Source of the DNA: Phycisphaerae bacterium
GTDB lineage: Bacteria; Planctomycetota; Phycisphaerae; Tepidisphaerales; Tepidisphaeraceae
Length of the DNA stretch: 64,000 nt
Direction: 5' to 3'
Assembly: GCA_030448225.1 (NCBI GenBank)
Contig: JAUJNJ010000003.1
Coordinates: 70,887 to 134,886 of the forward strand
A program made the translations under genes and the position numbers. Below, one piece after another: positions 26,400 through 26,590 of this stretch. Numbering within the stretch: position 1 is the first letter of the stretch; every line of letters begins with the position of its first letter. The notes beneath the pieces were generated by a model. That model did no database searches. It had not been told where the DNA came from and saw only the letters and a program-made list of their open reading frames with translations.

Positions 26400-26590
26400 C
26401 GATCTGGCGGCGGGAGGACCGCCGATCGGGCGGCTGTTCGGACTTGCTCCACGAACCTCTCGTGGCCGGCGACGATCCGGCTGCAGTGGGAGCTGCGTGT
26501 GCACGCGCTCCAACGGACCTCGATCTGTCGCCGCCGACGAGTTTACCCGCTGCTCACGCCGCTCGAACGAGGCAGTGGAAGCGGGTAGAT
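26400..26590 (-). ncRNA. candidate IS110 bridge RNA
   Basis: Reading 5' to 3' on the minus strand there is a 5' stem-loop (8-bp stem, 26587-26580 with 26551-26544). A target-loop candidate spans 26532-26468. Its outer stem pairs 26532-26522 with 26477-26468 (10 bp, one bulge) and its apical hairpin is 26511-26489. The internal loop between them has two sides. The 5' side (26521-26512) reads GAGGUCCGUU, and its last 8 bases equal the target to one side of the junction. The 3' side (26488-26478) begins CACUGCAG, complementary to the transposase-sense strand on the other side. Further down, ACAGCCGC (26437-26430) equals the element's own terminal 8 bases. The layout follows IS621-type bridge RNAs. 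The right-donor guide was not convincingly found. Confidence 0.65.

Follow-up and report, generated by a model that had tools for sequence, protein, structure and literature searches.

Bridge RNAs are an established kind of RNA, since they were predicted in 85.7% of IS110s by Durrant et al. (PMC11208160). In the published descriptions of IS621 the RNA is encoded in the left end (LE) of the element and consists of a 5′ stem-loop, a target-binding loop and a donor-binding loop (PMC11208160, PMC11208158). The left and right target guides (LTG, RTG), the left donor guide (LDG) and the discontiguous right donor guide (RDG) follow a strand rule, handshake nucleotides are present, the promoter is formed at the circle junction and insertion occurs in palindromic repeats. 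The IS110-group element described here, which lies in a 64-kb window (the whole stretch of DNA that was analysed), appears to share all these features. It departs from the published picture of IS621 in the target footprint (five nucleotides on each side of the core in the family of the window element, as compared with 8-9 nt on the 5′ side and 4-7 nt on the 3′ side), in an extra linker hairpin of the predicted RNA, and in the target, which is attC-like here and an E. coli REP in IS621. The cores also differ: TT/CT occurs naturally in the window element, whereas in IS621 TT cores were engineered and found to be functional but less efficient (PMC11208160).

Two further systems are close. Like the window element, ISEc21 of the IS110 family has a seekRNA encoded in an upstream non-coding region, a bottom-strand match 5′ of the top-strand match and a circle-junction promoter, but its target is linear and lies inside IS3-family transposase genes (PMC11187229). 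The IS1111-attC group (for example ISKpn4 and ISPst6) inserts, guided by RNA, at one attC end, and in this the window element probably resembles it. In that group, however, the RNA is located downstream of tnp, the order of the target halves is reversed and the subterminal inverted repeats are long, whereas the predicted RNA of the window element is upstream (PMC11187229). Passages of the same paper tie attC targeting to the IS1111 group (PMC11187229).

The evidence presented below makes it very probable that the 5′ flank of the window element encodes a bridge RNA of the IS110 group. The preliminary description, which had put forward the same proposal, spoke of an undescribed planctomycete element. 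Of this, the planctomycete assignment appears plausible from the hits, and no planctomycete bridge RNA was seen among the matches listed in open-access titles and the beginnings of abstracts.

The element, its transposase and its relatives

The element extends over 25355..26600 on the minus strand (1246 bp, from the first base past the left core to the final base of the right core). Its junctions are fixed by an uninterrupted copy of the site (18981-19100) and by the family-wide ends. In the 123 elements for which both were located, these hardly varied: the left end reads core-TGTATVTT and the right end ACAGYCG-CT. The left core, TT (26601..26602, minus strand), has the same letters in the empty site copy GGTCCG-TT-GCAGTG; the right core, CT (25355..25356, minus strand), was located by pattern-based end finding in the family. 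Among 145 elements, with near-identical copies scored separately, the cores were CT/CT in 143 and TT/CT in two (the window element and L138), the end pattern admitting CT or TT as the left core and CT alone as the right core, so that other cores were invisible. The LTG of L138 also ends in UU; its RDG is for CT and does not follow.

The left end measures 225 bp to the ATG and the right end 35 bp including the core. This is the arrangement of the IS110 group, a long left end with the RNA and a short right end. A 6-bp subterminal inverted repeat, TGTTGA/TCAACA, was noticed by eye at 26590-26595 and 25363-25368; at this length it exceeds the published 2-3 bp of the IS110 group and falls short of the 7-17 bp of IS1111 (PMC11208160). 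Membership of the IS1111 group was considered and rejected: the RNA sits in the left end, not in the right one, and the inverted repeat is 6 bp only.

The transposase gene (25390..26375, minus strand; ATG at 26375, stop at 25390) is split between two reading frames, with the shift near 26190-26200. The longer frame contains the DEDD_Tnp_IS110 (PF01548) and Transposase_20 (PF02371) domains and scored 176.7 bits against NCBIfam NF033542, 'IS110 family RNA-guided transposase' (cut-off 140). Leaving aside the entry of the window itself, P0003 was the closest of the listed proteins (92% identity over 91% of the query); it matched only ISCro4 and IS621 among PDB sequences (phmmer, E 0.001). Columns D19, E67, D109, D112 and S248 were invariant in an alignment of 32 sequences (A1). 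The motifs GIDVSK, EATGRYE, KTDAIDA and HDSG were found across both frames of the window transposase, and its putative catalytic D, E, D, D, S set was equated with the IS621 residues by motif.

Relatives were collected from GTDB representative genomes (best 80 of 119), from samples of 392, 397 and 149 genomes, and as extra copies from multi-copy genomes. The 123 elements with both ends include a few that were misread; among further loci, 8/20 had both ends. The non-redundant set of 57 elements holds one per near-identical cluster, without L147 and elements at contig edges; in this count the left end of the G357 family (L201) was misread and the G390 family is missing. The closest proteins (82-92% identity) sit on contigs of about 1.3-2.1 kb, and the relatives read as DNA exclude this set. 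Two scans of viral contigs did not find relatives; plasmids gave 2507 records with weaker relatives, which were left out of the counts. In multi-copy genomes similarity between copies breaks off at these ends or up to a few tens of bases away, shared targets blurring the break. Some multi-copy elements of the planctomycete sample (L188, L167, L176 and their copies) lie inside short recurring sequences. Examples are G378, with CTCCGCGT as left and CCGCGGTGAA as right flank, and G433, with CTCCGTGC and CCGTGGTG.

A predicted bridge RNA and its guides

The predicted RNA spans 26384..26586 on the minus strand, its 5′ end being placed by a candidate promoter at the circle junction. Scanning the joined ends revealed a -35 box, TTGAAA, supplied by the right end (25370..25375, minus strand) and a -10 box, TATGTT, supplied by the left end (26593..26598, minus strand), which on the circle would be 17 bp apart. 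Judged by motif, the promoter TTGAAA-17-TATGTT would be reconstituted at the circle junction, and only there. The best promoter-like pair was in the same register in 44/58 elements, a count without shuffled control and for ends conserved by kinship. Circle-junction promoters were reported for IS621 (PMC11208160) and ISEc21 (PMC11187229).

All features of the predicted RNA are on the minus strand. A 5′ stem-loop (26544..26587) was found in the minimum-energy fold, and several relatives have long hairpins at the same place. The target-binding loop (26468..26532), supported by letter checks and the alignment fold, comprises an outer stem (GGCGAC-a-GATC with GATCGTCGCC), the LTG, an apical hairpin (26511-26489) and the RTG. 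It is followed by a linker hairpin, CCACGAGAGGUUCGUGG (26449..26465), 8 nt of which are absent from most aligned relatives, and by the apical stem of the donor loop (26401..26427; helix 3), in which 95.6% of the cells were paired and 6/7 pairs showed two-sided change. Folding energy distinguished the 225-nt left end (z = -3.85). A 180-nt stretch was not exceptional (z = -1.62; 16/200 shuffles as good), and the minimum-energy fold shuts part of the target internal loop. The open target loop is predicted from the alignment, not from folding energy.

RNAalifold, applied to 21 aligned RNAs including that of the window, returned the outer target stem, the apical stem and the donor stem. This result was completed by hand to a 22-pair structure, which leans towards the window and in which 86.5% of the cells were paired vs 67.4% after shuffling (0/500). 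Two-sided changes were seen in 18 of the 22 pairs, and covariation was 0.470 as against 0.177 in shuffled alignments (each 0/500). All slid versions of the structure scored far lower. With the 20 sequences other than the window RNAalifold retained the donor stem alone; the support of the window-free model is therefore mainly sequence. This model recovered the window RNA (26535-26384, 38.0 bits, E 8e-9). The model based on the 22-pair structure matched all of 38 further loci, with one match each; they were hand-picked from non-model loci and several are kin of model rows. The runner-up of the window-free model in the window, 54540-54624 on the minus strand (19.7 bits, E 0.00048; 12.2 bits with the other model), is perhaps a chance match in GC-rich DNA. 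Rfam at the gathering threshold gave nothing in the window; with E up to 1 the sole match near the element, to a microRNA, was far under its threshold and was rejected.

The stem, the apical hairpin and the loop letters and coordinates of the preliminary description proved exact on re-reading. It had suggested a covariance-model search, which has now succeeded with a model built without the window, and it had stated that the RNA proposal would fall if the stem-loop were not conserved among relatives. The fold is conserved.

The LTG, GGUCCGUU (26512..26519, minus strand), is identical to 26608-26601 and to 19053-19060, and the RTG, CACUGCAG (26481..26488, minus strand), is the complement of 25356-25349. 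These are the two loop sides noted earlier: GGTCCGTT is indeed present at 26519-26512 and in the flank at 26608-26601, and CACTGCAG at 26488-26481 has its complement at 25356-25349. While every letter and position of that guide reading stood, it has to be amended in that the right-junction 8-mers overlap at C25356 and that the left core is TT (26602-26601). C25356 is common to both 8-mers as the first letter of the core, CT (25356-25355). The LTG ends in UU and fits TT; the RTG ends in AG and fits CT, with one G·T against the TT of the empty target. The spacing between LTG and RTG is 31 nt in the window, where there is an extra linker hairpin, vs 22-26 in most other elements.

Over the left end, the window guides fitted their own target at 14/14 letters (7+7 including the cores, spacing 18-45). 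Such a fit was found in 0/56 targets of other elements and 0/20,000 random targets with the same cores, 13 letters being reached in 24/20,000. For the 57 non-redundant elements the fit to their own flanks summed to 691, vs 568.5 ± 6.4 after permutation (maximum 603, 0/100,000); 17/57 elements reached 11 or less of 14. Permutation counts overstate independence because the relatives are kin, those for the donor guides above all. In 42 elements with a score of 12 or more and enough flank, the five nucleotides to either side of the core matched at 74-98%, rates that are inflated within the footprint by the choice of guides by fit; further out, where positions are unaffected by this choice, matching was at background. 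The target footprint in the family is thus five nucleotides, the core and five nucleotides. Two elements of different genomes, L165 and L161, have the same left end and different left guides, which track their own sites; the right guide of L165 fits at 4/7 only. According to the preliminary description, loops kept identical at differing insertion sites would speak against a bridge RNA. Over the 57 elements taken together the guides were found to follow their own flanks, and this tracking, together with the conserved two-loop fold in relatives, supports its proposal.

The LDG, ACAGCCGC (26430..26437, minus strand), equals the element end 25363-25356; here too the 8-mer pointed out earlier, ACAGCCGC at 26437-26430 and 25363-25356, was confirmed, as the left half of the donor guide. 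The second half (26399-26390) had been missed. Over 7 nt the LDG equals the right end of the element in 55/61 cases (permuted mean 11.9, maximum 26, 100,000 permutations), a count inflated by kinship, by the existence of only nine end types and by a letter-restricting search motif, which was found in 61/62 rows. In the window the second core letter of the LDG (C) mismatches CT.

The RDG, CAUCGACAAA (CAU-CG-ACAAA, 26390..26399, minus strand), can pair discontiguously with TT-TGTATG (26602-26595), and a gapped match of this kind to the left end was present in 59/61 elements. Five elements have left ends departing from CTTGTAT, and the RDG has changed alongside in 4/5, L138 being the exception. 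The compensating pairs are CTCGTATG with AUUUACGAG (L188), CTAGTATC with AUUUUACUAG (L105), CTTGTAAG with UUCGGCAAG (L164) and TTTGTATG with AUCGACAAA (window); the variants include CTCGTAT/ACGAG, CTAGTAT/ACTAG and TTTGTAT/ACAAA. The window RDG ends in AA, which fits the TT of the left junction. Adaptation of the RDG to a TT core rests on this one case, since L138, the other TT/CT element, has an RDG for CT.

The RDG is followed by the handshake nucleotides CG (26388..26389, minus strand), which can pair with CG, the final two bases of the left target; the handshake position of IS621 was described in PMC11208158. On the donor side 61/118 handshake pairs were formed in 59 elements, vs 34.7 ± 3.9 after permutation (0/20,000). 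In the target loop the first position pairs in 38/40 and the second in 14/40 elements, counted without a permutation control; the window pairs at the first alone.

The uninterrupted site and the proposed insertion

The predicted target, GGTCCGYTGCAGTG, has one exact extra copy in the window, at 19053-19066 on the plus strand (GGTCCG-TT-GCAGTG); 0/100 shuffles had any. This uninterrupted copy, 7 kb away, agrees letter for letter with the joined element flanks over 41 nt, AGGACCGTTCCGCCCGGCCGGTCCG-TT-GCAGTGCGGGGTTA. The uninterrupted site has TT as its core, in agreement with the left junction; CT stands at the right one.

By analogy with IS621, for which a top-strand cut 3′ of the core was described (PMC11208158), transcription, binding, catalysis and current activity can be pictured as follows. 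The element would excise as a circle, in which the right end is joined to the left end, and the sigma-70-like promoter TTGAAA-17-TATGTT at this junction would direct synthesis of a roughly 200-nt RNA. The recombinase would bind this bridge RNA. Its LTG would pair with the bottom-left strand and its RTG with the top-right strand of GGTCCG-TT-GCAGTG, while the LDG and RDG would pair with the element's own joined ends. GGTCCGTTGCAGTG would be the target that recombinase and RNA join to the element circle. The top strands would be cut 3′ of the core and then exchanged. Because of this cut position the left junction would keep the core of the target and the right junction that of the donor; the junctions as they are, TT left and CT right, agree with such an outcome.

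The uninterrupted copy has the appearance of an integron attC site (18975..19077, minus strand, 103 nt, R″ GGATAAC ... R′ GTTATGC). It was picked up by a relaxed attC scan, of which it was the best of three hits in the window, the second core having been widened post hoc to the letters of the window. attC sites are defined by RYYYAAC ... GTTRRRY ends and a palindrome of 57-141 bp (PMC3053210), and the window copy, GGATAAC...GTTATGC, misses this consensus at some positions. Its homologues in two genomes of the planctomycete sample, GCCTAAC...GTTAGGC (L249) and GCATAAC...GTTAGGC (L251), pass the unwidened scan; of the two, that of L249 meets the consensus fully. The repeat is an imperfect palindrome with a fold of -53 kcal/mol for 103 nt, and the insertion site is located at its foot.

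Both window copies adjoin a predicted ORF. One of 206 aa (24723..25343, plus strand) ends with its TAA inside R″ of the occupied site, and one of 125 aa (19072..19449, minus strand) does so at the empty site; by eye the two are unlike each other. A predicted ORF of 125-206 aa stopping in the R″ TAA was found at 4/6 sites, both window copies included, so that a cassette ORF appears to have the attC-like site at its 3′ end. The element is inserted in the L″-like arm, antisense to the cassette-like ORF. Two side observations concern repeats of the neighbourhood. Short tandem GTTGGAC repeats occur at 26688-26713 and 22529-22598, one of them directly adjoining the occupied attC-like site. A second dispersed repeat, GTCATCCCGAGGGGAGCGG..., is present at 26753-26804 and 41851-41902 (79% alike over 52 nt).

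Alternative explanations and significance

Hairpins ahead of a start codon might also belong to a regulatory leader of the transposase, the flank matches being due to chance or to relics of sequence capture. Structured leaders are common, and the hairpins do stand ahead of the ATG; still, over 57 elements the matches occupy the same positions of the structure and stop sharply 5 nt from the core on each side, an edge that a leader does not predict, and the agreement of the donor guides with the element ends contradicts it as well. We regard this explanation as highly improbable. It is considerably less improbable, but on balance unlikely, that the bridge RNA is decayed, a fossil in a dead copy that records the last insertion. 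The transposase frame is interrupted, and the repeats listed for the window include no second copy of the element. However, rpsB occupies three frames, and tsf apparently two, in the adjoining segment (27082-28982, minus strand; Pfam detects only the second part of tsf, the first part was recognised by eye). Genes of this type are normally essential, and since they are broken too, indel errors in the assembly are the simpler cause of the two-frame transposase and its likely one. Also against decay, the catalytic motifs are present over the two transposase frames and the guides fit. Because the assembly probably contains indel errors, broken frames anywhere in the window need careful reading.

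What the RNA addresses is less certain. The insertion site is probably an integron attC ending a gene cassette. An ordinary REP-like palindrome or a small non-autonomous repeat is the less probable of the two identities considered, and a serious one. It would account for the presence of one or two repeat copies per genome with no cassette array seen, and for a repeat centre, GGTCCTCGTGATT, that is common to different genomes, which is unusual for attC. It would also agree with the deviations of the window R″ and R′ from RYYYAAC and GTTRRRY, which pass only the pattern widened post hoc, and with the lack of site enrichment: a search of 294 planctomycete-sample genomes for the target with the first core and at most two mismatches gave 9 hits vs 8 for the reversed control. 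Against it stand the homologues of two genomes that pass the unwidened scan, the ORF stops in the R″ TAA at 4/6 sites, and an integron integrase above the cut-off in two of the best three of nine repeat-matching genomes, as compared with 21/149 sampled genomes; these intI genes are on contigs other than those of the repeat. As a trait of the family attC targeting lacks support, since 0/139 joined sites passed an attC scan across the junction. The window's own joined site is among them, and fails because its R′ is degenerate.

Preferring the attC identity, we tentatively propose, with somewhat less than even confidence, that the window holds an element of the IS110 group, with its RNA upstream of the gene, that is naturally addressed to attC-like cassette sites of planctomycetes. 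Its guides would be adapted to a TT core, each fitting its product junction after strand exchange rather than one shared core.

What makes this element noteworthy is its attC-like address, its TT/CT asymmetry and the presence of an empty site within the window. Target, donor, both junctions, the predicted RNA and the uninterrupted site are all inside one 64-kb window, and every guide letter can therefore be checked. Naturally unequal cores at the two junctions bear on which strand supplies the core. The covariance model and the rule of five nucleotides, core and five nucleotides offer a target reading for a clade of bridge recombinases that is not close to IS621. Should the attC reading be true, RNA-guided elements of the IS110 group would be a further hazard to gene cassettes.
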